Source of the DNA: Pectobacterium zantedeschiae
GTDB taxonomy: Bacteria; Pseudomonadota; Gammaproteobacteria; Enterobacterales; Enterobacteriaceae
Length of the DNA: 64,000 nucleotides
Assembly: GCF_004137795.1 (NCBI RefSeq)
Contig: NZ_NWTM01000001.1
Coordinates: forward strand, 1,973,229-2,037,228
Reading direction: 5' to 3'
Shown here: one piece after another, positions 6,619 through 54,767 of the stretch
Position numbering within the stretch: position 1 is the first letter of the stretch
Layout of the letters: each line of letters starts with the position of its first letter
Made by a program: the position numbers and the translations under genes
The notes under the pieces: model-generated
Seen by the model: only the letters and a program-made list of their open reading frames with translations
Databases searched by the model: none
What the model was told of the DNA's origin: nothing

Positions 6619-6698
6619 GCGTACCTTCCTCCCGCGAGGCCGCGCGGTCGCGGCCTGCTGAATACCTTTGATTAGTTAACAGTGGCGTGGAAAACGAT

Positions 6699-11348: not shown

Positions 11349-11421
11349 TGAGCTACTCCTTCACGTAAGGGAGGATTAAAACGACTGATCCCTACTGCAA
11401 TATCGAGATACACGGGTATAC

Positions 11422-11460: not shown

Positions 11461-11545
11461 TTCCCCCTAAAACTACACATTATTGATACAGCACATTTTC
11501 AGCACTTGTTATCGTTACAAACGCAGCACGAAACACTTACGCGCC

Positions 11546-30435: not shown

Positions 30436-30459
30436 ATGAAATAAAGGGTGGACTAGTTG

Positions 30460-31329: not shown

Positions 31330-31330
31330 C

Positions 31331-34161: not shown

Positions 34162-34173
34162 CAATAATACCTT

Positions 34174-36620: not shown

Positions 36621-37466
36621 CTACGATCTAAATAAACGCAATAAAAAAAACAAATTATCCTCAATAAAGAAAACATAAGATAATTTAAAAATAGAATATG
36701 GAAGAGAAGTAATATCATATCTGAAATTTATAATAACTTCATTTTTAGCCGATTGTAACCTTGACATCCTGGACATTTTTTTTCGACTACTCCATCCTCG
36801 ACAGTGGAAAGCCTGTGTACTGTGATCTACAGCTATGCGTCCAATTTCACGCAACCTAATAGATAATTCAATATCTTCTTTATACATAAAAAATCTTGGA
36901 TTAAAAAAATAACCATCTTTTATTATAAGGTTATTTACGATTGATTTCCTCACCAGAATTAAAGCACCACACAATGCATCAGGATATGATAACTCATCAA
37001 AAATCCGAATATCATTAGGATGCACAATATCTTTCCATGAAAATCCTGACTTATATATCCCTAATGAATCATAGTGTACTAATTCTTTTTTATTTTCAAA
37101 ATCAAATGACTTCAATACCGCAGATATAGCAACCAGTTCTGGATTACCATCTAACCGTTCAGTAAGCAGTCCTAGATTAAACTCATCTATTATGGCATCT
37201 GGATTAAGAAATAAAATATATTCACTAAGAGAAGATGACAACTCAACACCTAGGTTATTCGCCTGACTAAAACCAACATTTTCACCGCAATTAACCTTTA
37301 CTTTTTTATATCTATTAGAAAGATTTTTTATTTTTTCAAGATCAATTAAAGACCCATTATCAACAATAATAATTTCATTTATAAAACTCATTCTATCCAA
37401 CACAGGAATATTCCACTCCAGATAGTTAAAACTATTATAACTAACTATAATCACTGAAATTAACAC
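36621..37466 (-). CDS. Glycosyltransferase family 2, WbbL-like
   Basis: A 281-residue GT-A enzyme with ISVIIVSYNSFNYLEWNIPV, EIIIVDNGS, NCGENVGFSQANNLGV and FLNPDA (DxD-like), followed by FFMYKEDIELSIRLREIG. This set is typical of the WbbL group of dTDP-rhamnosyltransferases, in keeping with rmlACD in the window; the acceptor is unknown. The DNA is strongly AT-rich. Its start overlaps the wzy stop by 7 bp. Confidence 0.82.
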   Translation of the reverse strand: MLISVIIVSYNSFNYLEWNIPVLDRMSFINEIIIVDNGSLIDLEKIKNLSNRYKKVKVNCGENVGFSQANNLGVELSSSLSEYILFLNPDAIIDEFNLGLLTERLDGNPELVAISAVLKSFDFENKKELVHYDSLGIYKSGFSWKDIVHPNDIRIFDELSYPDALCGALILVRKSIVNNLIIKDGYFFNPRFFMYKEDIELSIRLREIGRIAVDHSTQAFHCRGWSSRKKMSRMSRLQSAKNEVIINFRYDITSLPYSIFKLSYVFFIEDNLFFLLRLFRS

Positions 37467-38704
37467 GTCTCTCTCCTCACCAGAAAAAATCTAAAAAACA
37501 CAAAAAAAACCAATTGAAAAATAACAGGAAGATAAAGCCAGAAATTGACAAAGAAAGAGAATATAGAACAAAAATAAAGAACAGAAAAACATGAAACAGT
37601 TAAGAATGATGGTTTTTTTAGCATGCTATTTTGTATTAAAACAGCAACAACAAAAACAAAAAAAGTAAACAAAATGCTAAAACCAATACCCCAATCTTGC
37701 ACAATAGGCATGAGATATGATGACACATTTAAATTATCTAAATCTAAAACCAATTCAACCTCATTCCCTCCAACCCCTCTAAAAACACTAGGTATAAGAG
37801 TAGAGAATGCATAACCATTGTTTAACCCGACGTATCCAGATGTAATTAAATTATCAAGATTTAACACATTAAAATAGCTATATGAATAAACCCAATAAAA
37901 CATTGATGGCAGAAAATTATATTCAGGCCTTACATGAATCAGTTCTTTAATATCACCACTGCGCAGCTCACCTAGAAATGCAAATATGACAAGGGCAAAA
38001 AATAGCACTACAGATATCTTAGTTAGATTTTTAGATTGAGTACCTAGAGATTTAATCACTAATAATTCAAGGAAGATAGTAATTATGTTCTGCCGAGTGA
38101 ACGTAAAAATAAAAACAAAAACAATGATGTATATGTGGATTTTAAATCTTTCATTTTGCTTTCGAAAATAGAACAGAATGACACACAATGACAGTGCAAA
38201 AGAATTTATAAAGCCATTTAAACTAGAAACGCCAAAATCCTTGTAATTACTATACCCTGAAACAAACTGAGAAACTAAAGGAATGAAACCACTCCATATG
38301 AAATTCAGAGAGAACAAAGCATATAGCAAAAAAAGAAAAAAGTTAAGTCGACTTGTTTTCACTTTTTCAGGCAAGGGTTCACATAACGCTCCCTTTCCCC
38401 TGCTAAAAGAAGAAATAATAACTCCAGATAATATCGGAACGGATATCAAATAAGCAGTCTCAGGCGATATACTCCTATAATAATAGGTCAAATTCAATTC
38501 TGAAAAAAGCAATAGAACACACCACGGGGCAATAAATGAAAACTCAATACGCCTATAATCAACTCGGTTATATAATATAAAGAAAAACCCTAAAAGAGAC
38601 ACTAGAAAAACAGGGAGCGATGAAAACTGAAAATAAATCATGAATATAACTGCAATAAATGAAATAACAAAGCCGCCTAATCTATCTATAGATATCTTGC
38701 CCAC
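37460..38704 (-). CDS. wzy: Wzy-type O-antigen/capsule repeat-unit polymerase
   Basis: A 414-residue integral membrane protein with about eleven hydrophobic segments (from FVISFIAVIFMIYFQFSS through FFLVRRETC) and a larger periplasmic loop around 255-320 (RPEYNFLPSMFYWVYSYS, SVFRGVGGNEVELVLDLDN). Wzy proteins share little sequence, and assignment rests on this topology, on the segment resembling oligosaccharide-repeat polymerases, and on position between glycosyltransferases with wzx in the same operon. It would join lipid-linked repeat units in the periplasm. AT-rich DNA. Confidence 0.75.
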   Translation of the reverse strand: MGKISIDRLGGFVISFIAVIFMIYFQFSSLPVFLVSLLGFFFILYNRVDYRRIEFSFIAPWCVLLLFSELNLTYYYRSISPETAYLISVPILSGVIISSFSRGKGALCEPLPEKVKTSRLNFFLFLLYALFSLNFIWSGFIPLVSQFVSGYSNYKDFGVSSLNGFINSFALSLCVILFYFRKQNERFKIHIYIIVFVFIFTFTRQNIITIFLELLVIKSLGTQSKNLTKISVVLFFALVIFAFLGELRSGDIKELIHVRPEYNFLPSMFYWVYSYSYFNVLNLDNLITSGYVGLNNGYAFSTLIPSVFRGVGGNEVELVLDLDNLNVSSYLMPIVQDWGIGFSILFTFFVFVVAVLIQNSMLKKPSFLTVSCFSVLYFCSIFSFFVNFWLYLPVIFQLVFFVFFRFFLVRRETC

Positions 38705-39892
38705 TTACGAATCCTTTATTATATCAGTTATTAAATTTCTTTTGTTTTCAGCATAAAAATTAACAATAGAAGAACTCATTTTTTTTAGTTCAGTACTATT
38801 ATTTATCAGTGCTTCGAGCTCATCAGCTATCTCAGCTATAGGCCTGTTTCTATCGAATGGCTTACATCCATCTCGGATTTCTATTCCTTTCATTGACTCA
38901 ATAGTACAAAAACACGGCAACCCATATGAAAGTGCTTCAACAACCTTAATCTTAATTCCAGATCCAAATATTACAGGTGATATCATAAGTCGGGCATTCC
39001 TAACCGTTTCAGTCAATAACTCTTCACTAAGAAACCCAAGAAAATGTACATTACTAACATGCTTATATGTATTACTTAATTTATTATTTCCGCCTATAAC
39101 TTGATAGCTAATATCATGTGTAAGTGGAGCTAATTCATTACAAATCCATTCAATCGCTTCTTTATTAGGGAAGTATCCCTCACCACCAATAAAAACAATA
39201 TTTTTCTTATTTTGAGAAACATCAACACCTATATCGTGAAAGGGAATAACAAAAGAACCAAGCTTAGTGTTATTTAAACCAAATATATTCTCAGCTCTAG
39301 ACTTATCAAAATCGGAAAGGAAATATATGTTTTTAAATCGACCATATATTTTCCTTTCTAATCGTTTAGTTTTAAATAGCTCTATAAGGGAGAAACATCG
39401 CTCAATGCCTTTTGTATATTTAAATCTATCTATAAATATATCTCCTTCTATGTTATGGCTAATGTGAGTGACAGAGTCAGCATAATCATTAATTAAAGCA
39501 TATGATGCAAGATGATCAGATATAATCACATCATAGTTATTTCTTTCAATTAGTGCCTTTATCTCATTTTTAGCGTTAGGATTATCTCGGACATGAACAA
39601 ACCTAGGGTTAGAGTTAAAAACATATCGAACAAAAGAAAATAACTTCTCCACTAATGTGAGTTGCTCAGCCTTTTTCCCATTCCTTTCAAATAAAAAAAA
39701 ACGTCCATTACATTTTATATGGAGAGGAAAGTCATCAATAGTAGACTTAAGGTCAACATCAAGAAAAACACAATCCAAGTGACTAATATAATCAGAATTA
39801 ACTAACGATACTAAATTTTTAAAAAAGACCTTTTTCCCGCCGCTATCTGGGTTAACCGGAAACTCAGGACATACATATAAAACTCTTTTCAT
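38705..39892 (-). CDS. Glycosyltransferase family 4
   Basis: A GT-B enzyme of 395 residues from ATG 39892 (MKRVLYVCPEFPVNPDSGG). The N-terminal domain has the glycine loop SGGKKVFFKNL; the C-terminal nucleotide domain has NIVFIGGEGYFPNKEAIEW and the GT4 signature SGIKIKVVEALSYGLPCFCT, in place of the usual E-x7-E motif. Donor and linkage cannot be read; with manB/manC in the operon a mannosyltransferase is plausible. An in-frame TTG at 39904 is a less likely start. AT-rich DNA; it abuts wzy (stop adjacent to the wzy start). Confidence 0.82.
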   Translation of the reverse strand: MKRVLYVCPEFPVNPDSGGKKVFFKNLVSLVNSDYISHLDCVFLDVDLKSTIDDFPLHIKCNGRFFLFERNGKKAEQLTLVEKLFSFVRYVFNSNPRFVHVRDNPNAKNEIKALIERNNYDVIISDHLASYALINDYADSVTHISHNIEGDIFIDRFKYTKGIERCFSLIELFKTKRLERKIYGRFKNIYFLSDFDKSRAENIFGLNNTKLGSFVIPFHDIGVDVSQNKKNIVFIGGEGYFPNKEAIEWICNELAPLTHDISYQVIGGNNKLSNTYKHVSNVHFLGFLSEELLTETVRNARLMISPVIFGSGIKIKVVEALSYGLPCFCTIESMKGIEIRDGCKPFDRNRPIAEIADELEALINNSTELKKMSSSIVNFYAENKRNLITDIIKDS

Positions 39893-39956
39893 ACTAGATA
39901 CCAAAATTAATCAATGGAGGAAAATTAATACGATAAATGAAAATTCAATAAAAATA

Positions 39957-40913
39957 CTAGCGATTATTAAAAAATTTCAATCGAGCAAAAAAGCTTATCA
40001 ACTTGATAAAAGACCGACTAAAGATGCCAACAGATTTTGTTGATTCTTCCAGCCCCCAAATACAATTAACAGAGTGTTTTTGCATTTGCATTAATGTATA
40101 TATCGTATGCCTCATGATTTTTGGTACTTTTTTCGAATCTATTAAATAATTCCTTAGTAAATTAGATTTGTAAATGAACGCATCCTGCACTTCTTTTTTC
40201 ATACTTTCATTTTCATTAATTCTATATACGGCAACCTTATCATTTAACTTGAGAATACCGCTTATAGAGGTCGTCCATCGACACCAAAACTCATAGTCAG
40301 CTACAGGGGCCCAATCAGCAATAAACCCGCCAAGAGCAATACTTTTTTTCCGATCCATGACAACAGAAAGGGTACCATTAAAGCGATTTGATATAAAAAA
40401 ATCAATTTTCGAATAATACTTTTTTTGGCGTATATTATTCGATACATTATTTATTTTTTCGCTTTTTTTCAATCTCTCATCTGATATGTAACTATCGAAA
40501 CCAAAAATAGGAATACTCCCTTCGGTCATATCAGGAAACATTCTATTTATAGCGACCGAAAAATTATCTTTAAACACATCATCGTCATGTAATATAGTAA
40601 TATACTTTCCTTTTGCTAAAGAAAGGCATTGATTCCAATTGCCAAACATCCCTAAGTTTTCATGGTTTATTACATACTTAAACCTACCTAATTTTTTATT
40701 TTTAGCGATGAACTCATGACGTTCTTTTAACTCAATAGAATTATTATCAACAATAATAACTTCAACTGGAAAAATAAAGTTTTGAATAAAACAACTTTTT
40801 AATGTTTCATTCAATAGAGCAAATCGATTATATGTCGGTATTGCTATTGTCAGAAGAAACTCATCCTCATCATTATAAGAATTAAAAAAAACCGAATAAT
40901 TATCATTCATCAT
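39957..40913 (-). CDS. Glycosyltransferase family 2 (abequosyltransferase-like group)
   Basis: A 318-residue GT-A enzyme: LTIAIPTYNRFALLNETLKS, VEVIIVDNNS, NHENLGMFGNWNQCLSLAKG and the metal motif LHDDDVF. The NxGxxxNWNxC segment is common in a GT2 group that includes transferases of 3,6-dideoxyhexoses in Salmonella and Yersinia O-antigens, so it is a candidate for the ascarylosyltransferase; this is inference. It follows wzx by 18 bp. AT-rich DNA. Confidence 0.8.
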   Translation of the reverse strand: MMNDNYSVFFNSYNDEDEFLLTIAIPTYNRFALLNETLKSCFIQNFIFPVEVIIVDNNSIELKERHEFIAKNKKLGRFKYVINHENLGMFGNWNQCLSLAKGKYITILHDDDVFKDNFSVAINRMFPDMTEGSIPIFGFDSYISDERLKKSEKINNVSNNIRQKKYYSKIDFFISNRFNGTLSVVMDRKKSIALGGFIADWAPVADYEFWCRWTTSISGILKLNDKVAVYRINENESMKKEVQDAFIYKSNLLRNYLIDSKKVPKIMRHTIYTLMQMQKHSVNCIWGLEESTKSVGIFSRSFIKLISFFARLKFFNNR

Positions 40914-40931: not shown

Positions 40932-42263
40932 TCATTTAACATGAAAATCTTTATATATCATATATGGCCATTTCCAGTTGTTATATAAAAGTTGAATAAC
41001 ACCTGGTATAACAATCAAGAAATACATTGACGGTGAAAAAAAACGCATCGAAACATATATCAATAATACAATCACAATACCTGATATCAATGCTGGATAT
41101 AAAAAAGGCACTGTGTTTTTAGTTGTTATATAAGTGGCTGCTATAGTATGGTTTAGTTCCAGCGCCCCAAAACAGAAAATTAACAGAAGAGCACTTTTGG
41201 ATGGCAGGTGACTTCCTTCTTTCAGAAAAGAAAGAAAATAACTACCTAGTGTCACCGAAAAAAAAGCCACAATAAAAAAAATCAGTAATGAACGTAACAG
41301 TACTTTTTTGTACAAGAACCAATTTTCACTAGAATCATTCACGTGTGTCATAGCAAACTTGGGTATATTTAAATTAAAATACACTTGTGATATCGCCATA
41401 TTGACACTTAAAACTTGCATAGCAATAGCAAATGATGTTAAATCTTGACTATTTAAATAAACTCCCCCGATGAAAATAGATGCTTTATTTATAAGATATG
41501 CGCCAAATGTAACAGCACCTAATCTAAAGGAATTTGGTATCATCGCTGATAAAACTGATTTAGTTTTATCATTTCCATCATGTAATAAAAACGGTTCATT
41601 CCTTAGAGCATATATACAATAAACCCGACCAAGAAGAACCCCCAAAAGATATGAGATAGCTAATGACAAAACACTTTTTGTTATTATCAACCCAAAAATA
41701 CTAAATATTATCCACGCAGTCTTTATAATTATATTTGATACATTGCTCTCATAAATTTTATTTACACCCATCAGTATGGGGTTTAAATATAAATAATATA
41801 TATTTAAAACAAAACCAATAACAAAGATCGCCCATAAACACCATACATTTGGAATATCTGATTTAATAGTAAAACCATGAATATAATATGTACCAAGTAA
41901 AAGCAAAAGGCTAAAAGCCACTGTAGATATTGTCCTATATATCTTTTTCGATGATATATATATATCACCCAGCAACATATCATTCCTTTTGTTTAACTTA
42001 CTATTATCACCTAATGAAAACCCTTCTGATACTATTTTATCCGCACCATTATAAGCGTAAGAAACCGCTCTTAATATTGTTGGCGAAAAACCAAAATCGA
42101 GAACCCCAGTAAAACTAATTACAGCTAAAATAATCATCCAAAAAGCAACTTGCTCCTGAGGCAAATAGGCCAACATAAAAGGTAGCAAAAGAACCCCATA
42201 ACCTATACTAAGTATTTGAGACAAATACCCAGTAATGATCTGCTTTTTTCCTACACTATGCAT
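40932..42263 (-). CDS. wzx: Wzx-type polysaccharide flippase
   Basis: A 443-residue membrane protein of the MOP/MATE superfamily with about twelve hydrophobic segments; the N-terminus KKQIITGYLSQILSIGYGVL and GVLDFGFSPTILRAVSYAYNG are family features. It should flip the undecaprenyl-linked repeat unit to the periplasm for Wzy. A long cytoplasmic loop after the second or third segment (SEGFSLGDNSKLNKRND) is somewhat unusual. It lies between a GT2 gene and the ascarylose genes. Confidence 0.88.
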   Translation of the reverse strand: MHSVGKKQIITGYLSQILSIGYGVLLLPFMLAYLPQEQVAFWMIILAVISFTGVLDFGFSPTILRAVSYAYNGADKIVSEGFSLGDNSKLNKRNDMLLGDIYISSKKIYRTISTVAFSLLLLLGTYYIHGFTIKSDIPNVWCLWAIFVIGFVLNIYYLYLNPILMGVNKIYESNVSNIIIKTAWIIFSIFGLIITKSVLSLAISYLLGVLLGRVYCIYALRNEPFLLHDGNDKTKSVLSAMIPNSFRLGAVTFGAYLINKASIFIGGVYLNSQDLTSFAIAMQVLSVNMAISQVYFNLNIPKFAMTHVNDSSENWFLYKKVLLRSLLIFFIVAFFSVTLGSYFLSFLKEGSHLPSKSALLLIFCFGALELNHTIAATYITTKNTVPFLYPALISGIVIVLLIYVSMRFFSPSMYFLIVIPGVIQLLYNNWKWPYMIYKDFHVK

Positions 42264-42273: not shown

Positions 42274-42804
42274 TTACCATGATTTTAATAATGGAAAATT
42301 TAAATCTCTTTGTGAGATTATGTATTTCACATCCTTACCATTCCAATCAAAACCAAAGCTATCCCAGCGAATACCTGAGTCATGATCAGGAGCATGAACC
42401 GTGGACGTCATATAAACCATTGTTGCACTTTCCGATAAAGCCAGAAATCCATGAGCATAACCTCGGCCAATGTACAGTGCATTTGCTTTTTCCGACGACA
42501 GTGTCGTTGAAAAATACTCTCCAAATGTCTTTGAACCGATACGAATATCTACAACGACATCCAAAATTTCGCCACTAACACAATAAACCAATTTTGTATG
42601 ATCATAAGGTGGAAGTTGAAAGTGCATTCCTCGCAGTACCCCCTTATGTGAAGTTGAATAAAAACTCTCTGTAAAATCCCCCTCTAATCCATTTTCAATA
42701 AAAGTCGGAGCATGAAAAGTTTTAACAAAAAAACCACGTTCATCTTTAAATAATTTATTATCTATCTCGTAGATGCCATCTAGATTTGTAGCATTTATTT
42801 TCAC
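42274..42804 (-). CDS. ascE: RmlC-like epimerase, probable CDP-3,6-dideoxyhexulose 5-epimerase AscE
   Basis: A 176-residue cupin of the RmlC family: FKDERGFFVKTFHAPTF, RGMHFQLPPYDHTKLVYCVSG, GYAHGFLALSESATMVYMTS. It differs from the true RmlC at 31331 and lies directly after a CDP-sugar reductase and the ddh/asc genes, so it most likely inverts C5 of the CDP-3,6-dideoxy-4-hexulose to give the L-series, the step that leads to ascarylose. I choose GTG 42804 as start: GGAGG lies six bases before it and it falls just after the stop of the upstream gene; the frame is open ten codons further from a TTG. Confidence 0.75.
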   Translation of the reverse strand: MKINATNLDGIYEIDNKLFKDERGFFVKTFHAPTFIENGLEGDFTESFYSTSHKGVLRGMHFQLPPYDHTKLVYCVSGEILDVVVDIRIGSKTFGEYFSTTLSSEKANALYIGRGYAHGFLALSESATMVYMTSTVHAPDHDSGIRWDSFGFDWNGKDVKYIISQRDLNFPLLKSW

Positions 42805-42805
42805 T

Positions 42806-43717
42806 TCATCCCTCCAAATCTTTGTAGTAATCAATTGTCCTACTAATGCCCTGATGTATTGTATACTTGGGAGACCAATTCAACTCAGATTGCAGCGTAG
42901 AAATATCAGCATACGCTATAGGAATATCATTTTCCGATGGTTCGCCCCACTCCTTATCAACCGTTTTGCAGAGATGTTGTTCTATTATAGAAATAAGTTC
43001 CCTGATGCTGATAGCGCGGCCAGAACCTAGATTGTATACTCGATACCCCCTCTCCCCCTCAAAACTTTTAACACCAGAAATATAAGCACTAACAACGTCA
43101 CTTATATAAATAGGGTCAATTTTTTGCAATCCATCAGAAAGAGAAACCTTATCTCCTCTCAATGATTTCTGAATAACCGTAGGTATCAATTTGGTATTAT
43201 CTTTTTCACCATAAGGTGAAAAAATTCTAAAGGTTATCGATGGAACACTATCCTGATAAGTTTTTAGGATATGCTGAAAAGCAAGCTTAGTTTTCGCATA
43301 AAAATTAAATGCTTTTTCGCTGGCATTTACTGAAACTGGTTGCTGGCTACAATCAAGCTCAAAAAACGTTCCAGTATTAATAAACCCTTTAACTCTATAT
43401 TTTTCACACAATCCCAATAAAGCTGTGGGAAACGTAACATTAGAATTCATTTGGTCGATAAAATCATTCTCGTTATCAAATTTTCGATATAAGGTCGCTA
43501 GATGTATCATATAATCAATCTTATGTTGCGAAAATGCAGAGTCGAGAGGAACTCTATCAATATCGTAAAATATTATTTCTGATTTTATTTCTTGCAAACG
43601 CCATAAATCAGACGTAGAACGCTTATAGCCAATTACACAGAAGCCCTCTTTTATAAGGGCCTCTGCTACATGACTACCGATGAAACCTGTAATTCCGGTA
43701 ATCAATACTTTCTTCAT
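42806..43717 (-). CDS. ascF: NAD-dependent epimerase/reductase, probable CDP-ascarylose synthase AscF
   Basis: A 303-residue extended SDR protein with LITGITGFIGSHVAEALI (GxxGxxG), the TGTFFEL segment and Y-x3-K in FYAKTKLAF. The sequence class is that of CDP-abequose/paratose/ascarylose synthases, which reduce C4 of the CDP-3,6-dideoxyhexulose. Because an epimerase gene follows and the complete ddh set precedes it, L-ascarylose is the best reading; abequose or paratose synthase is the alternative. It is one base after ascC's stop and overlaps nothing if ascE starts at 42804. Confidence 0.72.
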   Translation of the reverse strand: MKKVLITGITGFIGSHVAEALIKEGFCVIGYKRSTSDLWRLQEIKSEIIFYDIDRVPLDSAFSQHKIDYMIHLATLYRKFDNENDFIDQMNSNVTFPTALLGLCEKYRVKGFINTGTFFELDCSQQPVSVNASEKAFNFYAKTKLAFQHILKTYQDSVPSITFRIFSPYGEKDNTKLIPTVIQKSLRGDKVSLSDGLQKIDPIYISDVVSAYISGVKSFEGERGYRVYNLGSGRAISIRELISIIEQHLCKTVDKEWGEPSENDIPIAYADISTLQSELNWSPKYTIHQGISRTIDYYKDLEG

Positions 43718-43718
43718 G

Positions 43719-45032
43719 TTAAAAATTCAACCCAAAGAATTCTTCAAATTTTCCGATCACAAAATCCAAATGTTCAGTATCTAATCCCGGATAAATGCCG
43801 ATCCAGAAAGTCTGGTTCATGATACGGTCAGTATTGGTTAATTCACCGACAACACGGTATTTCACGCCTTCAAAATAAGGCTGACGAGTCAGGTTACCCG
43901 CAAACAACAAACGTGTGCCAATTTTTGCATCGTCCAGAAATTTAACCAGATCGACACGATTAATACCGCTTTCTTCTTTAAGGGTAATCGGAAAACCGAA
44001 CCATGAAGGCTCAGAATTTGGCGTAGCTTCAGGTAACTCAATGAATTCTTCGCATGATGCAAGGCCTGCTTTCAGGTATTCAAAATTGGCATTACGCTTC
44101 GCAACGAAATCCGGCAAGCGATCCATTTGCGCCAGGCCACATGCAGCTTGCATGTCCGAGATTTTTAGGTTGTACCCGACATGTGAATAGGTATATTTAT
44201 GGTCATAGCCAAAAGGCAGGGAACCTAATTTCTGGCCAAATCGATTATTACAGGTGTTATCACAGCCCGGCTCACAGTAGCAATCACGTCCCCAATCGCG
44301 GAAAGATTCAGTGATCGTTTTCAATTCGGATGAATTAGTAAAGACGGCACCGCCTTCGCCCATAGTAATATGGTGCGCAGGGTAGAAACTTACGGTAGCA
44401 ATGTCACCAAATGTGCCAACGATCTGACCGTTGTATTTGGCACCCAACGCATCACAGCAGTCTTCAATCAGCCAGAGATTGTATTTATCGGCAATTCTCT
44501 TAACTTCAGATAAATCAAACACATTCCCCAGAGTATGGGCGATCATAATCGCACGGGTTTTATCACTGATTGCCGCTTCAATTTTACAGGGGTCGATATT
44601 GTAAGTAGGAATATGAACATCAACAAAAACAGGAATCAGGCCATACTGAATCGATGGGTTAACCGTGGTTGGAAACCCTGCAGCAACAGTAATCACTTCG
44701 TCACCCGCCTTTAACGCACGATCACCCAGTTTCGGGGACGTCAGCGTAGCCAGAGCCAGAAGGTTAGCGGCAGAACCTGATACTGTCGTCAGGACATGTT
44801 TTACACCAAGGAATTCACCCAAACGGCGTTCAAATTCACGGTTAAAACGCCCTGTTGTCAGCCAGCCATCCAGACAAGCATCAACCATCATTTTGATTTC
44901 TGGAGCACCGATCACTTTGCCCGCAGGAGGGATGATACTTTCACCAGCCAAAAATACTTTGGAGGCAAAAGCCTGGTTAGCATATTGTTCGACCAGTTTA
45001 GCGATGTCTTCTCTTAGGTTTTGGGTGCTCAT
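43719..45032 (-). CDS. ascC: CDP-4-keto-6-deoxy-D-glucose 3-dehydrase (E1)
   Basis: A PMP-dependent, iron-sulfur dehydrase that removes the C3 hydroxyl. The 437-residue aminotransferase-fold protein has histidine instead of the PLP lysine: H220-H221 in [12 protein letters not shown], the hallmark of E1 (RfbH/DdhC/AscC). Cysteines C251, C253, C257 and C261 ([13 protein letters not shown]) form the [2Fe-2S] site. The start ATG 45032 shares one base with the stop of ascB (TGATG), so translation is coupled. Works with AscD (E3). Confidence 0.93.
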
Positions 45033-46138
45033 CAATAGTGACCTTTATCGTTTTGAGTTTTCATATAATCATGTATTTCATTTAACGTAATCTGGCGCAT
45101 ATCTGCACCAGCTAACCAAGCTTTGTGCCACGTGACAATGCGGTTCAGCGTCTCTTCAAGCCGCCATACTGGTGCCCAATTCAAACGCATTTTAGCCTTG
45201 GAACAATCTAGCTTCAGATAGTGTGCTTCGTGGGGGTGTTCACCATCATCCAGAATCCATGATGCATCCTTGCCCCACGCACCAACCATCTTTTCAACAA
45301 TCCATTGAACCGGTTGGGCATCTTCATCTAACGGTCCAAAGTTCCAGCCCTCTGCATACTCCGTACCATTTACATAAAGCGCCTGCGCGGCACAAAGATA
45401 TCCAGATAGGGGTTCAAGTACATGCTGCCAAGGACGGATCGCGTGCGGATTGCGAATCAGCACAGGGCGTTGCTCTTCAAACGCTTTAAGGATATCAGGA
45501 ATAAGACGATCGAGGGCCCAGTCACCGCCGCCGATCACATTACCCGCTCTGACAGAAGCCAGCGCACAACCATGTTTCTGATATTTATCAGCATTAAAGT
45601 ATGACTGTCGATATGCTGCGGCGACTAATTCAGCACAGCCTTTACTGTTGCTGTAAGGATCATAACCGCCCATGGGCTCATTCTCACGATATCCCCAGAC
45701 CCACTCTTTATTTTCGTAGCATTTATCACTGGTAATATTGACTACCGCTTTAACGCCACCGATTTTACGCACCGCTTCCAGCAAATGCACGGTCCCCATG
45801 ACATTCGTAGCGTAAGTATCGACAGGAATATCGTATGAAAGTCTGACAAGCGGCTGAGCCGCCATATGGAAAATAATTTCAGGACCGAATGCTCTGATAC
45901 TTTCTTCCATTTTCTGGTAATCACGGATATCCCCAATGTCACTGGACATTCCTTTTTCAACACAGGCAGCTTGGTAGATAGATGGCTCGGTAGGTGGTTG
46001 CAACGCATACCCCTTTACCTCTGCCCCCATGCTCTGTAGCCACAGGCATAACCAACTACCTTTGAAGCCAGTATGCCCTGTTACGAAGACTTTTTTTCCT
46101 TGCCAAAATGCTGAATTTATCACGCTGCTTACTCCCAT
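45032..46138 (-). CDS. ascB: CDP-glucose 4,6-dehydratase
   Basis: Converts CDP-glucose to CDP-4-keto-6-deoxyglucose. The extended SDR protein has [18 protein letters not shown] near the N-terminus, [26 protein letters not shown]-like active-site Thr/Ser and Y-x3-K in YDPYSNSKG, and matches RfbG/DdhB throughout ([27 protein letters not shown]). Start is uncertain: ATG 46138 (10-bp overlap with ascA) or the GTG at 46123. Coupled to ascC at its stop. Confidence 0.94.
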
Positions 46139-46902
46139 TTTTTCCAAGGAGCTTCACCATTTTGCCAAAGTTCATCAAGAAGCATTTTGTCTCTTAACGT
46201 ATCCATTGGCTGCCAAAAACCCGTGTACTCATAAGCCATCAGCTCACCCTGTGCGGCCAGAGTCATCAGAGGTGATTGTTCCCAAACGCTGCTATCACCA
46301 TCAATCAAATCTAACACCTTAGGTGACAGAACAAAGAAGCCGCCATTAATCAAGGCACCATCGCCTTTTGGTTTTTCTTTAAAACTTTTCACCTGTCCCT
46401 GAGATAATTCAAGGGCTCCGAAACGGCCAGGCGGTAATGTCGCAGTTAATGTGGCAAGTTTGCCATGGCGTTTATGGAAGGCGATCGTATCTTGAATATC
46501 GAGGCCACATACACCGTCACCGTAGGTAAAGCAAAAGCACTCATCATCTTTAATATATTCAGAAACGCGGCGTAGTCGGCCTCCAGTCATGGAGTGATCG
46601 CCGGTATCGACGAGCGTAACCTTCCAGGGCTCGGCACGTTTTTGAAGCACCGTCATTTCATTATCCTTCATATTGAAGGTAATATCAGACATGTGCAGGA
46701 AATAATTCGCAAAATACTCCTTAATAACATATCCCTTATATCCACAGCATATGATGAATTCATTTATGCCATGATAAGAGTACATCTTCATGATATGCCA
46801 TAAGATAGGTTTCCCACCAATTTCAACCATGGGCTTAGGCTTAGTCACCGTTTCTTCGCTCAGCCTAGTACCTAACCCACCTGCAAGTATCACCGCTTTC
46901 AT
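46129..46902 (-). CDS. ascA: Glucose-1-phosphate cytidylyltransferase
   Basis: Makes CDP-glucose from CTP and glucose-1-P, first step to CDP-3,6-dideoxyhexoses. The 257-residue protein has [20 protein letters not shown], the diagnostic N-terminus of RfbF/DdhA, with GDGVCGLDI metal-site region and [26 protein letters not shown] precedes ATG 46902. It follows ascD by 93 bp and overlaps ascB. Confidence 0.95.
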
Positions 46903-46995
46903 GGAACGCTCCTAGTTGGTCCCTACTCTTTAATTTTTTGCCATATACAGATGACAAATAATACATTCGGTATATCTTTCTTAATCACTTATTAT

Positions 46996-47955
46996 TCAAC
47001 CAGATACTACAAAGGCATCTGAATAAAAATTAGCGGTAGGAAGTCCCTTTTCAATCAATAATGCTTTTGCCGACTCAATCATTGATTGGCTTCCACAGGC
47101 ATAGACACTGGCTGTATTCAAGTCACCAATATCAGCGATAACAAACTCCTGAACATAGCCGTATCTTCCATTCCAACCCTCTTCAGGTTGAGACAAAACC
47201 AGATTGCATTTAACATTAGCGTGCTGGCTTTCCCATAGCTCAACAGAAGGATCATAGAACAAACTACTTTTTCTATTTCCCCAATAAATATAAATATCTC
47301 GTTGAACACCATTATTAAGCAAGTCAGTAACAATGGACTTTATCGGTGCAAATCCAGTACCCGTTGCAAGAAATATTATTGGCCCAGAGCTTTCATTATT
47401 CCGATAAAAAAAGGTGCCTTTGGGCCCTTCAAGCTGCATTAATTGGTTAGCGGATAAATTACTAAATACCTTGCTACTCATAGCACCATTTTCTACACGC
47501 TTTAAATGAAGTTCAATTTTGCTATTATTTTTCGGAATAGAGGCAATAGAGTAACTCCTGGTTATTCCTTGATACTTAAGATCAAGATACTGCCCAGGCA
47601 AGAATATAAGGTTAGCTGTAGGTGGTAAACGCAGCGTAATAATTACAATATCCTCATGAGGATATTCGATAGAATCAACCTTGCACGGTGCGGTTTTACT
47701 TTTAATATTCGCCAGTTCAGGATAGTACTCCGCCTCTAGGGTCATATCACAGTCAGGCTTTACCTGACAAGTCAAAATAGTAGTAAGGATTTCACCTTGA
47801 GGACTAAGAATATGGGCTTCACAAGCGTTACACGAACCATTTTTACAGCTATGTTCCAGAACAATTCCTTGATCTATTGCTGCATCTAAAATTGTTTTTT
47901 CTGATCCACATTCAAAAACAACACCAGAAGGCATTAATGTGATTTTATTCGTCAT
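46996..47955 (-). CDS. ascD: CDP-6-deoxy-delta-3,4-glucoseen reductase (E3)
   Basis: A 319-residue FAD/[2Fe-2S] reductase that passes electrons from NADH to E1. Residues 1 to about 90 are a plant-type ferredoxin domain with cysteines in SCKNGSCNAC and a distal LTCQ; then an FAD domain (RSYSIAS) and an NAD domain (GTGFAPIKSI, YACGSQSMI, ending in F-Y-S-D-A-F). Same plan as RfbI/DdhD/AscD. ATG 47955 is chosen over an in-frame TTG at 47967; neither has a strong ribosome site. It heads the ascarylose gene set. Confidence 0.93.
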   Translation of the reverse strand: MTNKITLMPSGVVFECGSEKTILDAAIDQGIVLEHSCKNGSCNACEAHILSPQGEILTTILTCQVKPDCDMTLEAEYYPELANIKSKTAPCKVDSIEYPHEDIVIITLRLPPTANLIFLPGQYLDLKYQGITRSYSIASIPKNNSKIELHLKRVENGAMSSKVFSNLSANQLMQLEGPKGTFFYRNNESSGPIIFLATGTGFAPIKSIVTDLLNNGVQRDIYIYWGNRKSSLFYDPSVELWESQHANVKCNLVLSQPEEGWNGRYGYVQEFVIADIGDLNTASVYACGSQSMIESAKALLIEKGLPTANFYSDAFVVSG

Positions 47956-48077
47956 AATGGAAGCCAACTATTATTTATATTTTCGGCTAAATTCAGTTAG
48001 TCGATTTAGCACTAATTACAAATATGAAAAATGCCACTGATATTATCTTCTCAATGTCTATTTCATTTGAGAAATCA

Positions 48078-49511
48078 CTAATACGCACCGTCTCTTTTTA
48101 AAACAACATTGATCGTCTTAAATAAGATAGCGATATCATTCCATAGTGACCAATTTTTTACATACCATGCATCAAAGTACACACGGGTATCATAATCAAC
48201 ATCATTTCTGCCGCTGACCTGCCATAGCCCGGTCATTCCTGGCTTTGCCATGAGATAATAGTCGACATCGCCGGCATAACGTTCCAGTTCTTGCTCAACA
48301 ATAGGACGAGGGCCAACCAAGCTCATTTCTCCTTTCAACACATTGAACAACTGAGGCAGCTCATCTAAGCTAGTCTTCCTAATGAAATGACCTACTTTGG
48401 TGATTCTGGGATCGTTTTTTAACTTAAAATCTTTTTCCCATTCGGCTCTGGCTTCGGGATCTTTATCGAGTAATTCCTGCAACACTTCCTGAGAGTTGAC
48501 GATCATTGAACGAAACTTCAAACATTTAAATTTTTTTGCATTACGCCCAACACGTTCATGCCCATATATGGCAGGGCCACCATCTTTAGAAATCAGGAAA
48601 GCTAAGAATAACAACAGGGGTGAAGCAACCAAAATAATAGAGATAGAACCCACAATATCAAATGTTCTTTTTACTATTCGTGACGTTCTTTTAGCCAGAT
48701 TGTTACTGACTCGCAGAATCATCACTTCGTGGCTAAAAATGAAGGACATTTCAGTTCCATACAAAGGAACGCCGCGCAACGTTGGAATGACAGAGACAGA
48801 ACGACATTTCTTTTTAGCTAGTGATTTTAACCAGTAATCTCTCAGATCATAATCTTCAGCATCAACAGCGACAATGAATTGCGTTTCTTCAGAACAGCAC
48901 TGTTCCCAAAGTTCATCTTCAGAAGAGAGAACGGGAATATTAAAAATTTTCTTATCGTCATTTTTCTTAGTTGAAAAAAACGCAACTATACTAAAACCCA
49001 GAATCTCTTCGCTTTGTAAAGCAGCATAGGCATCTCTGGCATTTTTACCGTTTCCAATAATGACCGTTTGCTTTTTCCAAAGATTCAGTTTGTCTAAAAC
49101 ACGTTTAGTTAACGAGCGCCCCAGAGGAACGAGCATAAGCGCGAAAAACCACGTTAGCACCCAAACATATCGGGAGAAATCCCATTTTGAAAACGCGACA
49201 AATGCCAAATCTAAGATGGAAAAAATGACTAACGTTCTTAAAACTTCCTTTAACTCAAACCAGAACGGCTTACGATAAGAGTAATGTCTCAATCTAACCC
49301 AAAACCAACTGACACAAATACCCGAAAGAACAACATGTGAAATAAATCTGGCAAAAAATTCATTTTTTGGAATAAAAGAATAAAGATCAAGACCAAAAAG
49401 CTCAATCAGAATAAAAGTAAGCATTAATGAAAAATTAAAAAAGAAAAAATCTGAAAAAGCTAATGAGAATTTTATTATATTTATTTTTCTAAAATTTAAA
49501 AATGAATGCAT
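48078..49511 (-). CDS. wbaP: Undecaprenyl-phosphate galactose-1-phosphate transferase
   Basis: Initiates repeat-unit assembly by moving Gal-1-P to undecaprenyl phosphate. The 477-residue protein has about four N-terminal membrane segments, a soluble loop domain (TVIIGNGKNARDAYAAL), then a membrane hairpin and the catalytic domain (KFRSMIVNSQEVL, RKTSLDELPQLFNVLKGEMSLVGPRP, GLWQVSGRNDVDYDTRVYFDAWYV). It matches Salmonella RfbP closely in layout and in the family segments I know, including WFWVRLRHYSYRKPFW. Start ATG 49511. It follows wzc after a terminator-like hairpin. Confidence 0.93.
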   Translation of the reverse strand: MHSFLNFRKINIIKFSLAFSDFFFFNFSLMLTFILIELFGLDLYSFIPKNEFFARFISHVVLSGICVSWFWVRLRHYSYRKPFWFELKEVLRTLVIFSILDLAFVAFSKWDFSRYVWVLTWFFALMLVPLGRSLTKRVLDKLNLWKKQTVIIGNGKNARDAYAALQSEEILGFSIVAFFSTKKNDDKKIFNIPVLSSEDELWEQCCSEETQFIVAVDAEDYDLRDYWLKSLAKKKCRSVSVIPTLRGVPLYGTEMSFIFSHEVMILRVSNNLAKRTSRIVKRTFDIVGSISIILVASPLLLFLAFLISKDGGPAIYGHERVGRNAKKFKCLKFRSMIVNSQEVLQELLDKDPEARAEWEKDFKLKNDPRITKVGHFIRKTSLDELPQLFNVLKGEMSLVGPRPIVEQELERYAGDVDYYLMAKPGMTGLWQVSGRNDVDYDTRVYFDAWYVKNWSLWNDIAILFKTINVVLKRDGAY

Positions 49512-49567
49512 GATTATTACACACCTTAGCAATTGCTAATATTTCATTAACTAATTTATTTAAAAAT

Positions 49568-49716: not shown

Positions 49717-51885
49717 CTATTTATCTGATTTATATTCATATGAATAATAATCATAGTTGCCATAGCTATAGTAGCTAGCCGCACGTTTTACAATAGCATT
49801 CAGAATAACACCTTTAATCTCTGTACCATTCTGCTCAAAACGACGGATACTCACTTCAATTTCTTTCAGTGTATTCACCTCAAAACGAGCGACCAGAAGT
49901 GAAGTTCCAGCATGCCGACTAATCACAGCAGCATCAGTTACAGCAAGAATTGGAGGCGTATCCAGCAATACAATGTCATAGTTATTCGTCGCCCAATCGA
50001 CAAATTGTGAGAAACGACTATGCATTAACAATTCAGAAGGATTAGGTGGGATTTGTCCACGAGGGATAAAATCCATATTTTCTACAGCGGTTTTACGAAT
50101 GCTTTTCTCGGTCGTGATTTGCCCAGACAGTATATCGGAAAGCCCGTCTGTACCCTGGCATCCCATCAACTCATGAGCATAGCCTTTGCGCATATCACAG
50201 TCGACGATGAGTACTCGCTGCCCTGACTGAGCGATAACAGCTCCGAGGTTCGCACTGACAAACGTTTTACCTATCGCAGGACTGGCACCAGAGATCATAA
50301 GCACATTGTTTTTGGCTTCCATCATGGCGAAATGTAGGCTGGTGCGTAAACTTCTGATGGCTTCAATCGCGAGATCCGCGGGATTCCCAACGGCAAGTAA
50401 TTCTGTAGATCGAGTATTGCCTCTTTTACTTTTAACTAGTAGAGCTCTATCTTTCTTCTGTTGCCATTCAGATAATGGGACGCTGGCATAAACATTTATG
50501 CCCATATCTTCCAGTTGTTCAGGGCTTTCAAGTCCTTTATGTAACAAAGTCTTAAGTATCACAAATATTGCCGATATAAAAATCCCAGCAATCATCGTCA
50601 GTAGAACTATCACTGTTTTTCTTGGTTTTACAGGCTTAATACTAAGAGCAGCCGAGTCAATAACACGAACATTACCAACTGTACTCGCTTTATTAATGTT
50701 TAGTTCCTGTTGTTTATTTAGCAACTGCATATAAACTTCTTGCCCAACATTCACATCGCGCGTTAATCGTAATATTTCCTGTTGAGTTTTAGGCATAGCA
50801 CCTACACGCTTATTGATTTTCTCACGTTCTTCTTCAAGTGTTTTTCGTTTTTCCATTAGCGCACGGTAAGCCGGATGTTCTTTGGTATACAGTTTTGATA
50901 TTTCTGCTTCTTTAAATGTCAATTCATTAAGTTGAGATTCAACTGCGACCATCGTTTCCAATACCGATTTTGCTTCCAGAGTAAGGTCAACAGATTCATT
51001 TTTTTGTCGATAACTATTCAGTTTATTATCGGCTTCATCAAGCGTTAAACGTACATTAGGGAGTTGCTCCTTAAGAAATTCTAAGCTTTTTCCTGCTTCT
51101 TCAGATTTACGCTCAACATTTTGCTGCAGGTAATTTTGGCTGATGCTATTTAATATTTTATTAGTTAAATCAGGATCTTCCCCCTGATAACCTAATGCCA
51201 ACACACCTGTATCTTTACCTTTATCAGCTACAATCAAATCTTCTAAAACGTTATTAATTGCAGTAATTTCATTTAATTTTTTAACACGAAAAACAGTGCC
51301 ATTTGCAGCCTGAATATCACTCACTAATATGGATACACCATTTTTATTTGTTAGCTGCCCTACCTTTCCTTCAATTTTTATTGCATCACTAATATCGACT
51401 TCATAAGTATTAGCATCAATAACACGTAAATCAAACCATTCATCTTTCCATGATGCAGGAACATCAAGTCGAGACACTGCAATTCCCTCAGGCTTATACT
51501 CCATCAAACGAGAGAATCCTTTGCCAAAAAGCGGAAAGTATTTTTTTTGGACAACGACATCCAAAGATAAATCACTGACCGTCTTCCCCACCACCATGCG
51601 GGATTTTATCAACTCTACTTCAGCCGCAGATTCAGGTTTAGCATCGGGTAAAACATTGGATATATCTTTTAATAATGAATTACCCGTATTTTTTTCGACT
51701 TGAATTAAAGCATCAGATTTATAAATTGGAGTAGCAAACGTAGCATAAAGGATACCAATAATAGTAAAAATTGCAGTAACACCAATAATTAACCAACGAT
51801 GATCCAGCAATGTTCCTAATAAACGCCCTAAATCAATTTCATCCGAATTCGTTTCAGATGTTTTTACTGAAATTTTCTCTGCCAT
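49717..51885 (-). CDS. wzc: Wzc tyrosine autokinase / polysaccharide copolymerase
   Basis: A 722-residue inner-membrane protein controlling chain length and export with Wza. Two membrane segments (about 32-50 and 425-445) flank a periplasmic, partly coiled-coil region (EEAGKSLEFLKEQLPNVRLTLDEA). The C-terminal BY-kinase has Walker A GASPAIGKTF, Walker A' VLIVDCDMRKG and Walker B IVLLDTPP. The tail YYSYGNYDYYSYEYKSDK carries eight tyrosines as autophosphorylation sites. It follows wzb by 16 bp. Confidence 0.95.
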   Translation of the reverse strand: MAEKISVKTSETNSDEIDLGRLLGTLLDHRWLIIGVTAIFTIIGILYATFATPIYKSDALIQVEKNTGNSLLKDISNVLPDAKPESAAEVELIKSRMVVGKTVSDLSLDVVVQKKYFPLFGKGFSRLMEYKPEGIAVSRLDVPASWKDEWFDLRVIDANTYEVDISDAIKIEGKVGQLTNKNGVSILVSDIQAANGTVFRVKKLNEITAINNVLEDLIVADKGKDTGVLALGYQGEDPDLTNKILNSISQNYLQQNVERKSEEAGKSLEFLKEQLPNVRLTLDEADNKLNSYRQKNESVDLTLEAKSVLETMVAVESQLNELTFKEAEISKLYTKEHPAYRALMEKRKTLEEEREKINKRVGAMPKTQQEILRLTRDVNVGQEVYMQLLNKQQELNINKASTVGNVRVIDSAALSIKPVKPRKTVIVLLTMIAGIFISAIFVILKTLLHKGLESPEQLEDMGINVYASVPLSEWQQKKDRALLVKSKRGNTRSTELLAVGNPADLAIEAIRSLRTSLHFAMMEAKNNVLMISGASPAIGKTFVSANLGAVIAQSGQRVLIVDCDMRKGYAHELMGCQGTDGLSDILSGQITTEKSIRKTAVENMDFIPRGQIPPNPSELLMHSRFSQFVDWATNNYDIVLLDTPPILAVTDAAVISRHAGTSLLVARFEVNTLKEIEVSIRRFEQNGTEIKGVILNAIVKRAASYYSYGNYDYYSYEYKSDK

Positions 51886-51901: not shown

Positions 51902-52336
51902 TTAACGGCTTAATACCTGTACCCATTTCTGGGCGGACTGCTCAAGTTGCAAGTAGACGAATTCAAATGCTTCACGACTTTTACGATATGGATCGGCAAT
52001 CTCTTGCTGATTGACCCAACGGCCAAATAACATTGTCTTACCTCGGACCTCTGGCGCGATACGGCACACTCCATCAATGTGCCCTTTTTCCATAACCAAA
52101 ATAAGATCATATTGCCGACATAGCTCTGAAGTCAGTTGTTGTGCTTCATGACCATCAAGAGAAAGATTATGCTGGTTCGCAACATCTGCTGCGGTCACAT
52201 CTGCGGGTTTTCCGACTAACGCACCTAATCCAGCGGATGAAATTTTTTTAGCAGGAAATGCCTTTTTTAATAGTCGTTCCCCCGTAGGAGAACGGCAAAT
52301 GTTACCTACACAAACAACTAATATAGAATCAAACAT
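51902..52336 (-). CDS. wzb: Wzb low-molecular-weight protein-tyrosine phosphatase
   Basis: Dephosphorylates Wzc. The 144-residue protein has the P-loop C9-x5-R15 in CVGNICRSPTGE and the catalytic aspartate in IADPYRKS near residue 115. Cytoplasmic. It lies between wza (8-bp gap) and wzc, as in colanic acid and group 1 capsule operons. Confidence 0.96.
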   Translation of the reverse strand: MFDSILVVCVGNICRSPTGERLLKKAFPAKKISSAGLGALVGKPADVTAADVANQHNLSLDGHEAQQLTSELCRQYDLILVMEKGHIDGVCRIAPEVRGKTMLFGRWVNQQEIADPYRKSREAFEFVYLQLEQSAQKWVQVLSR

Positions 52337-52344: not shown

Positions 52345-53481
52345 CTATGGCCAGGTGCGAACTCGCAGGCTCCCCTCACTCAAATCGTTAAACGCAGAAA
52401 TCGTCGGTGCAAGTTGTGAAATCAAACGGTTCCAACGAACGATTGGTGCTGAAGTCACATAAACCACATCATAAGGTTGCAGTTGGAATTCCGCGCCCAT
52501 AACAAGCGAAGTTGCGTCGGCGACATTAAGCTGATAAATATCAGCCAGCTTCGGCCCCTGTGTTCCTCTCAGTGGGCGAATGACAAAGACACCAGTCGCA
52601 TCAGCCAACGTTTGATCCATACCTTCGGCGTTACCTAAAGCTTCCGTCAACGTCATGCCGCTGCGGTCCATTTTAAGTGTACTTTGCTTTTTGACTTCGC
52701 CCATTACGAACACTTTCAGGTCGTCATTACGCGGTATATAGAGGATATCGCCAGGATAAAGGAGATGGTTTTGAGACAGGTCGCCATTTTGCATCAGCGC
52801 CTGAAGAGAAATACGTTTTTCCTGACCGTTATGAGTAAGAACTATGTTACGCCAATCAGCATTCTCCGTCAGTCCGCCAGCACTGTTGATAGCATCTAAA
52901 ACAGTGAGAGGCACATTCGTGATAGGTTGCTGCCCTGATTTATCAACTTCACCGGTTACATACGCTTTTTGCGAACGAAACGCGGCAATGCTGACATCAA
53001 CCTGCGGAGATTCAATATATGTTGCTAAACGGCCCATGACCTCATCACGAACCTCCGTCACCGTTTTACCTGCAACTTTAACCTTACCAATGTACGGATA
53101 AAAGATTGTACCGTCGGAATGTACCCAGTTACCGGTATCAGCAGCGGTACGGTATGTACCAGCAGGCGTGGTCAATTCAGGGTGGTCCCATACAGTCACC
53201 ATGATGACATCGCCAATGCCGATGCGATATTCATACTGCTGTAGTTCGCTTTCCAATGCAGGATTAGTCTGTGCGATTAATGGTTTGACGCGCATTTTAT
53301 CGACTAAATAAGGCGTAAGAGGATAAACATTCACCAGTTTATCAATATTGAAATCAGCGTCTTGCTGCTCGATAACCTCTTTACCACTCGTCGAAAGATG
53401 ACTTCCGGGAATTATGGTACAGCCGCTAAGAAAGGCTATAGACACAACTAACGGTGCCAATTTTAACTTGTGCTTTATCAT
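52345..53481 (-). CDS. wza: Wza outer-membrane polysaccharide export lipoprotein
   Basis: Forms the octameric outer-membrane channel for the polymer. The 378-residue protein has a lipobox FLSGC with lipidated C21, the poly-export domain ([43 protein letters not shown]) and two SLBB domains ([30 protein letters not shown]). The C-terminal helix ending SLRVRTWP fits the membrane-spanning barrel. Length is as in E. coli (379). 123 bp after wecA. Confidence 0.96.
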
Positions 53482-54725: not shown

Positions 54726-54767
54726 CAGGAACGCTACCGCCCTTGGCTCATAGCTACCAATGCACTG
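54726..54767 (-). promoter_or_regulatory. JUMPstart sequence with ops element (RfaH recruitment)
   Basis: Read leftwards, CAGTGCATTGGTAGCTATGA is followed by GCCAAGGGCGGTAGCGTTCCTG, a near-perfect JUMPstart. The ops core GGCGGTAGCGTTCC is at 54728-54741. It lies in the 5' leader of the wecA-wza operon, 36 bp before its first gene. ops pauses RNA polymerase and loads the antiterminator RfaH, which long polysaccharide operons need. Confidence 0.95.

Follow-up and report, generated by a model that had tools for sequence, protein, structure and literature searches.

A probable CDP-L-ascarylose gene cassette in an exopolysaccharide locus of Pectobacterium zantedeschiae

We analyzed a 64,000-nucleotide stretch of the Pectobacterium zantedeschiae genome (assembly GCF_004137795.1, contig NZ_NWTM01000001.1, positions 1,973,229 to 2,037,228; hereafter the window). 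Six complete and contiguous minus-strand genes in the window (42274-47967) encode DdhD, DdhA, DdhB, DdhC, a short-chain dehydrogenase/reductase (SDR) and an RmlC-like epimerase. From their sequences we consider it probable that the six genes together make a cytidine diphosphate (CDP)-linked 3,6-dideoxy-L-hexose, most likely CDP-L-ascarylose, destined to become the terminal branch of an exported polysaccharide. Ascarylose, 3,6-dideoxy-L-arabino-hexose, is better known from nematode pheromones and is also known from the Yersinia O-antigen. An initial annotation of this DNA had described the genes as a complete ascarylose set (ascD, ascA, ascB, ascC, SDR and epimerase) beside wza-wzb-wzc; profile matches bear this out for the genes, and the annotation is probably right about the sugar as well.

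The presence of the gene set is far beyond chance. DdhA, DdhB and DdhC were assigned by the curated cut-offs of NCBIfam equivalog models, while DdhD has the domain make-up of a ferredoxin 2Fe-2S, an FAD and a NAD domain and is 27-48% identical to DdhD from ddh loci in other genera. Its start lies at 47967; position 47955, given previously, is the in-frame start that comes after it. Over its full length, DdhC can be aligned with 3bcx, a solved E1 dehydrase (812 bits, 437 residues). This alignment confirms the H220 and the four-cysteine Fe-S site that had been proposed for E1: histidine is kept at the position where the 3bb8 variant has lysine, and every cysteine of the cluster motif DCYCxPGCDNTC is retained. 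From ddhA through wzx, adjacent genes overlap or have at most 10 bases between them. RfbH/DdhC is uncommon, exceeding its cut-off in 12 of 394 genomes of the order and 11 of 392 of the family.

In the pathway that we propose, DdhA would charge glucose-1-phosphate using CTP, DdhB would form CDP-4-keto-6-deoxy-D-glucose, and DdhC with DdhD would take off the C3 hydroxyl, all of which is the established chemistry of these families. The cupin encoded at 42274 would then invert C5 of CDP-4-keto-3,6-dideoxy-D-glucose (His71/Asp177 as base, Lys81, and Tyr141 as acid), and the SDR encoded at 42806 would subsequently reduce C4 with NADPH. Derived on paper, inverting C5 and then reducing C4 leads to the L-arabino (ascarylose) or the L-lyxo configuration, depending on the face of hydride attack, and ascarylose is the parsimonious choice over the L-lyxo isomer. 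The family 2 glycosyltransferase encoded at 39957 would attach this sugar as a terminal branch, the repeat unit itself being started by WbaP (Gal) and an RfbN-like transferase (Rha). Wzx would flip this unit, Wzy would polymerize it and Wzc/Wza would export the product, part of which may also be ligated to lipopolysaccharide (LPS). We infer the substrate, the stereochemistry of the reduction, the role of the transferase, and the polymer and its fate from gene content, families, residues, clades and synteny, which are observed directly.

The epimerase appears to be of the CDP-pathway type and not the RmlC of dTDP-rhamnose synthesis, as judged by its clade and its association with ddhC. A pattern-based scan of contigs from 84,980 species yielded 67 loci, picked by epimerase sequence only. 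A tree of 81 epimerase and RmlC rows places the window epimerase in a 49-row clade (100/95), outside of which fall the window's own RmlC and the RmlCs from Salmonella-type loci; the grouping with non-CDP epimerases that the initial annotation had asked to be checked is therefore not what we find. Among 64 usable named loci, DdhC is encoded in the fetched stretch of 28 of the 44 clade loci and of 0 of the 20 outside it (Fisher p 3.9e-7, for loci that are not phylogenetically independent). The window and L003, of the same genus, were dropped from this count, as were L067 and L069 with no usable epimerase open reading frame (ORF), and the over-long ORFs of L017, L030, L033 and L068 were trimmed for both tree and count. 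The 28 named loci, although they come from one pattern-limited scan, span several phyla and point to a potential wider than Yersinia. A whole-genome search covering all 16 clade loci whose fetched stretch lacks ddhC and 11 of the 20 outside loci found E1 elsewhere in the genome for five of the 27, all five in the clade. For the remaining 11 of the 16 clade loci, most of them metagenome-assembled genomes (MAGs) by title and of unstated completeness, this search found no E1.

The equivalents of RmlC His63, Lys73, Tyr133 and Asp170 are all kept in the window epimerase, as His71, Lys81, Tyr141 and Asp177. The roles of the RmlC catalytic residues, including the tyrosine as proton donor at C5, are described in PMC7949155. 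The tyrosine is present in every epimerase row compared, rows without ddhC included, and therefore is alone no marker of the dideoxy route. In the best solved-structure relative of the window epimerase, PDB 5buv (164 bits), a cysteine takes the place of this tyrosine. The 5buv gene (100% over 168 residues) turned up in genome G805, at a locus with hemH, ddhA and ddhB; there the epimerase precedes an SDR and ddhA-ddhB are present as in the window, whereas ddhC and ddhD are missing. This gene, for the protein named WbcA, serves another sugar, presumably 6-deoxy-D-gulose. When 25 genomes of the genus of G644 were searched with the L135 epimerase at E 1e-30, the 5buv gene was the sole match. As a separate observation, an Ilyobacter MAG (L019, 7367-12045) carries four RmlC-family genes, two in the ddhC-linked clade and two outside it.

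The SDR is matched by 22 NCBIfam models, none of which reaches its cut-off. The protein carries the NTGT and YxxxK motifs. Its second beta strand is followed by a basic KRS, in place of the acidic FD of tyvelose epimerases, which is consistent with an NADPH reductase. A 47-row tree, with annotated CDP-abequose, CDP-paratose and CDP-paratose 2-epimerase proteins of Salmonella as anchors, resolves five SDR groups, each as a single clade. The window-type clade (100/94) consists of seven rows, namely two Pectobacterium, Thiomicrorhabdus, Ghiorsea, an uncultured proteobacterium, Halomonas and a Thermoplasmata archaeon, and joins the side of the tree that holds locus L135 only weakly, at 95/88, a larger group that was defined only after the trees were viewed. 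The 13 rows of the abequose/paratose synthase clade (100/98) exclude the window SDR. The SDR trees omit L106, L043, L067, L019 and L004 (long or short rows), and one tree also omits the RmlD-like class. At the third position of the loop that precedes the catalytic tyrosine, all 8 window-type rows and 12 of 14 L135-type rows have glycine, where 10 of 11 abequose/paratose-type rows have aspartate (all but L104).

In each of the eight window-type rows (the window and seven fetched loci), the SDR gene overlaps or touches the epimerase gene, and the two stay together in Pectobacterium, Thiomicrorhabdus, Ghiorsea and Halomonas. In a Ghiorsea MAG (L006, 6447-8908), a paratose-clade SDR lies beside a window-type SDR-epimerase pair behind a single ddhDABC set, which indicates that the pair forms an independent module; this organism may make two dideoxy sugars. 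Similarly, L045 has a paratose-clade SDR in addition to an L135-type SDR with its epimerase. At least three reductase classes adjoin the epimerase family (window type, L135 type and RmlD-like). One epimerase family would thus work beside at least three classes of reductase.

Homologues of the neighboring transferase and flippase were counted in 50 ddhC loci, with the window, L003 and the Sphingomonas locus L147 outside the count. The 39957 glycosyltransferase has homologues of at least 70 bits in 7 of the 30 counted loci that have a clade epimerase and in 0 of the 20 that do not (p 0.033), and L147 has homologues of both proteins. In Y. pseudotuberculosis, Wzx proteins pair with defined terminal sugars, and the Wzx1 set includes ascarylose, according to PMC6436433. 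The shared flippase and transferase homologues support the same terminal sugar in the window as in L135-type loci, whose sugar is itself a prediction.

Several observations weigh against a CDP-L-ascarylose product. A join of the window-type SDRs with the abequose/paratose synthases is not rejected by the approximately unbiased (AU) test, with p 0.194 (0.374 and 0.305 in other trees). The window SDR falls in a different clade from the SDRs of ddhC-epimerase-SDR loci, and the L135 side also holds the SDRs of L130 and L133, loci without a clade epimerase. A single clade of the window and epimerase-linked SDRs is rejected when rows lying inside it are left out (L130 and L133, p 0.017; in a second tree also the 5buv-adjacent SDR, p 0.00026), and stands in the best tree once they are included. 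The window SDR is at most a candidate counterpart of AscF. The epimerase gene follows the SDR gene in the window and precedes it in L135 and L147. Within the SDR group, the most divergent member lies in a Thermoplasmata archaeal MAG (L047, 8298-11630), in a run of ddhA, window-type SDR, epimerase and ddhB; no E1 was found in this 1.3-Mb MAG, which suggests that the window SDR type may also accept 6-deoxy substrates. For the flippase, homologues of at least 70 bits occur in 5 of 30 against 0 of 20 of the counted loci (p 0.075), an association that alone is not significant. Finally, no polysaccharide chemistry for P. aroidearum, the closest named relative, was found in the literature searched.

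The unrejected join leaves some room for an abequose- or paratose-type synthase acting on the unepimerized ketone, with the epimerase idle or responsible for a minor product. We consider this unlikely, since the best trees place the window SDR outside the 13-row group, its loop motif differs, the overlapping SDR and epimerase genes are conserved as a pair across four genera, and the Ghiorsea locus has a separate paratose-type SDR besides that pair. The initial annotation had named firm grouping with these synthases as a test of its proposal: the SDR lies outside their clade, but a sister position is not rejected (p 0.19). Rather unlikely is also a reduction from the opposite face to CDP-3,6-dideoxy-L-lyxo-hexose, the C4 epimer of ascarylose, by which the reductase classes would be stereochemical variants and not redundant copies. 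It would agree with the separate standing of the window SDR from the epimerase-linked reductases of other loci and with the pairing of several reductase classes with one epimerase family, and sequence does not fix the face of hydride attack. However, the string dideoxy-L-lyxo-hex is absent from the literature searched, which yielded no natural source of this isomer; according to the review PMC8533242, every natural isomer known is made by Y. pseudotuberculosis, with abequose, ascarylose, colitose, tyvelose and paratose named; and the flippase and transferase homologues shared with L135-type loci point to one common sugar, although a predicted one.

About as improbable as the L-lyxo product is that epimerase and SDR act on CDP-4-keto-6-deoxy-D-glucose, at C3 and/or C5, to give a CDP-6-deoxyhexose such as 6-deoxy-L-altrose or 6-deoxy-D-gulose. 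The clade loci for which the genome-wide search gave no E1 (mostly MAGs) and the 5buv gene, accompanied by ddhA-ddhB only, are consistent with such a route. In the window, however, intact ddhC and ddhD lie in the same gene run with the E1 catalytic residues kept, and with a single SDR the ddhC/ddhD part would be purposeless. Very improbable is that the gene at 42274 is a second rmlC for dTDP-L-rhamnose. Its product does exceed the TIGR01221 cut-off (167.5 against 155.75 bits) and the L147 homologue is annotated RfbC, but a separate true rmlC (262 bits) is present at 31331-31867, its product is 36% identical to the 42274 protein, and the two proteins fall in separate, supported clades. Because the RmlC model matches the 42274 protein and the Sphingomonas homologue is annotated RfbC, similar mislabeling is to be expected elsewhere, and RmlC-labeled genes beside ddhC can be mislabeled CDP-pathway epimerases. 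An erwiniose/yersiniose route was rejected, as no YerE/ErwE-like thiamine diphosphate (ThDP) enzyme follows ddhC in the window; in L100 and L126, a ThDP enzyme does.

The closest named genome, Pectobacterium aroidearum L6, matches the epimerase at 99% and the wza-to-rmlD block at 88-100% where covered. DdhC is matched at E 1e-100 in 6 of 25 Pectobacterium genomes, two of which, the window genome and G397, have the SDR-epimerase block. In G126 and G405, ddhC is followed by an aldolase, a ThDP enzyme (acetolactate synthase type), SDRs, an acetaldehyde dehydrogenase and a 4-hydroxy-2-oxovalerate aldolase, families of this erwiniose-type module that were scanned in G126 only and identified by family, not against ErwE itself. 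In G408 an abequose/paratose-clade SDR follows, interrupted by the contig end. The flanks of this site are conserved between G126 and the window, upstream (Wza 97%, Wzb 86%, Wzc 82%, WbaP 96% identity), in the ddh genes (DdhD 97%, DdhA 98%, DdhB 97%, DdhC 99%) and downstream (RfbN-like glycosyltransferase 91%, ManC 98%, ManB 96%, RmlD 85%, RmlC 95%, RmlA 95%, GalF 96%, Gnd 98%). By contrast, of the seven genes from the SDR to 36621, five are unmatched in G126 and two match at just 28-36%. The GC content of this block is 0.29-0.36, against 0.37-0.49 in the flanks.

The two arrangements thus share wza-wzb-wzc-wbaP-ddhDABC on one side and the RfbN-like transferase gene, manC-manB, rml, galF and gnd on the other (82-99% protein identity). 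Between them, the window has an SDR, an epimerase, wzx, wzy and three glycosyltransferases, whereas G126 has the ThDP enzyme, aldolases, acetaldehyde dehydrogenase, SDRs and another flippase. In the exopolysaccharide of P. atrosepticum, a Gal-Man-Rha backbone bears an erwiniose-Gal side chain (PMC8657720), and ErwE of this species couples to CDP-4-keto-3,6-dideoxyglucose (PMC12247030), an intermediate that the window pathway would share. A dideoxyhexose-derived sugar in exopolysaccharide, erwiniose, is therefore already known in Pectobacterium. Conserved flanks, swapped block and erwiniose precedent together indicate a known type of exopolysaccharide locus in which the terminal-sugar cassette has been exchanged: by sequence comparison, the same site holds an erwiniose-type module in other genomes, and the terminal-sugar block would be an exchangeable low-GC cassette between fixed flanks. 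The analysis partly supports a cassette, most likely of ascarylose type, with its own reductase class inside this locus type. In G413 (L128, ~1-11700) the locus is broken, with wzc, the initiating transferase gene, ddhB, ddhC and the SDR gene present only as shortened frames, and ddhD, ddhA, manC and manB whole or nearly so.

Beyond the genus, the asc genes of Yersinia pseudotuberculosis resemble the window in combining ddhDABC, a non-dTDP RmlC-fold epimerase and a single SDR in a polysaccharide cluster with wzx. The window differs from asc in the class of its SDR, which is not that of ddhC-epimerase-SDR loci, in the order SDR-epimerase and in its position beside wza-wzb-wzc. The Yersinia route that the initial annotation gave as the known match is consequently borne out for the full CDP-3,6-dideoxy-4-ketohexose pathway with its epimerase, but by SDR class and gene order the window pathway does not appear to be simply this route. 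Serotype O5a of Y. pseudotuberculosis carries ascarylose (PMC8533242). Salmonella abequose/paratose/tyvelose loci share with the window ddhDABC (RfbH 78.8% identical), an RfbN-like transferase and RmlABCD; the window, unlike the abequose/paratose loci, is without an SDR of their clade and has an added epimerase. In L146 and L148 (annotated Salmonella), the SDR follows ddhC without a clade epimerase, whereas the window has the overlapping epimerase gene.

A counterpart that shares both transport and transfer genes is found in L147, a 37-kb plasmid of Sphingomonas hengshuiensis, which like the window has ddhDABC, epimerase, SDR, wzx and family 2 glycosyltransferase homologues, next to a polysaccharide tyrosine autokinase gene. 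Unlike the window, it has an L135-class SDR that the epimerase gene precedes. Nothing was matched when plasmids were searched with the window SDR at E 1e-30, or when E. coli genomes were searched with the DdhC-SDR-epimerase stretch. According to PMC10689435, 3,6-dideoxyhexoses had been known only from few enterobacteria. No report of ascarylose in Pectobacterium appeared in the mostly open-access literature searched (including PMC9326479); among the papers listed, PMC12154563 alone mentions both Pectobacterium and ascarylose. If our proposal is correct, a soft-rot plant pathogen displays ascarylose on its exopolysaccharide, and the genus swaps erwiniose-, ascarylose- and abequose/paratose-type terminal sugars at one site while the backbone genes are kept. 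The locus would then offer a direct test bed on which to follow how flippases and transferases track the terminal sugar, and how that sugar is recognized by phages and plants.

The wider gene run starts with wecA and wza-wzb-wzc-wbaP and ends with manC-manB (Table 1). As previously claimed, the sugar genes adjoin wza-wzb-wzc, all three of which are real, Wzb scoring below its cut-off. With wza, wzb, wzc, an initiating transferase, wzx and wzy all together, the locus has the composition of a Wza/Wzb/Wzc-dependent (group 1-like) exopolysaccharide system. A main chain of Gal-Rha-Man would be in keeping with WbaP, the RfbN-like transferase, ManBC and RmlACD, with linkages predicted from these families; rmlB is not in the locus, and the sole RmlB match above cut-off lies on contig C6. 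Elsewhere in the genome there is one Wzy_C-type (ligase or polymerase family) protein, and the genome as a whole has two Wzz-domain proteins, one being Wzc, so that export and ligation to LPS are both possible.

Table 1. Annotated features of the polysaccharide locus, in window coordinates
Feature	Position	Strand	Basis
JUMPstart/ops-like leader upstream of wecA	54730..54767	-	ends in GGCGGTAGCGTT
WecA-type transferase, first gene of the cluster	53605..54690	-	TIGR02380 541 bits
Wza export protein	52345..53481	-	NF011658 696 bits
Wzb phosphatase	51902..52336	-	NF007520 223 bits, below cut-off 243
Wzc tyrosine kinase/co-polymerase	49717..51885	-	NF008568 1247 bits
WbaP, undecaprenyl-phosphate galactose phosphotransferase	48078..49532	-	TIGR03022 566 bits
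DdhD/E3, CDP-6-deoxy-glucoseen reductase	46996..47967	-	Pfam Fer2, FAD_binding_6 and NAD_binding_1, all above cut-off
DdhA, glucose-1-phosphate cytidylyltransferase	46129..46902	-	TIGR02623 472 bits, cut-off 300
DdhB, CDP-glucose 4,6-dehydratase	45032..46147	-	TIGR02622 518 bits, cut-off 278
DdhC/E1/RfbH, CDP-4-keto-6-deoxy-D-glucose 3-dehydrase	43719..45035	-	NF011936 RfbH 757 bits, cut-off 423
SDR, predicted NADPH-dependent C4-ketoreductase acting after the epimerase	42806..43717	-	Pfam Epimerase 118 bits; own clade (100/94)
CDP-type RmlC-fold epimerase, predicted C5 epimerase (AscE-like)	42274..42834	-	TIGR01221 rmlC 167.5 bits, cut-off 155.75; ddhC-linked clade
Wzx flippase	40932..42263	-	NF041503 454 bits
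Family 2 glycosyltransferase, candidate dideoxy-sugar transferase	39957..40913	-	PF00535 73 bits
Group 1 glycosyltransferase	38705..39904	-	PF13692 50 bits
Wzy polymerase	37460..38704	-	TIGR04370 48.5 bits, cut-off 40; no Pfam match
Family 2-type glycosyltransferase, end of exchanged block	36621..37466	-	weak sub-cut-off glycosyltransferase matches; unmatched in G126
RfbN/WbaN rhamnosyltransferase-like glycosyltransferase, conserved flank	35602..36519	-	46% to the same-place gene of Salmonella-type L132; 91% in G126
ManC	34174..35583	-	TIGR01479 720 bits
ManB	32791..34164	-	NF011943 824 bits
rmlA-rmlC-rmlD (dTDP-L-rhamnose)	30457..32715	+	TIGR01207 519, TIGR01221 262, TIGR01214 355 bits

The 12-base pattern of the leader, with one mismatch, is not significant alone (2 matches, a number reached in 26 of 100 shuffles). 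The leader is credible because of its position and conservation: L126 and L129 carry the same leader with a final G, GGCGGTAGCGTG.

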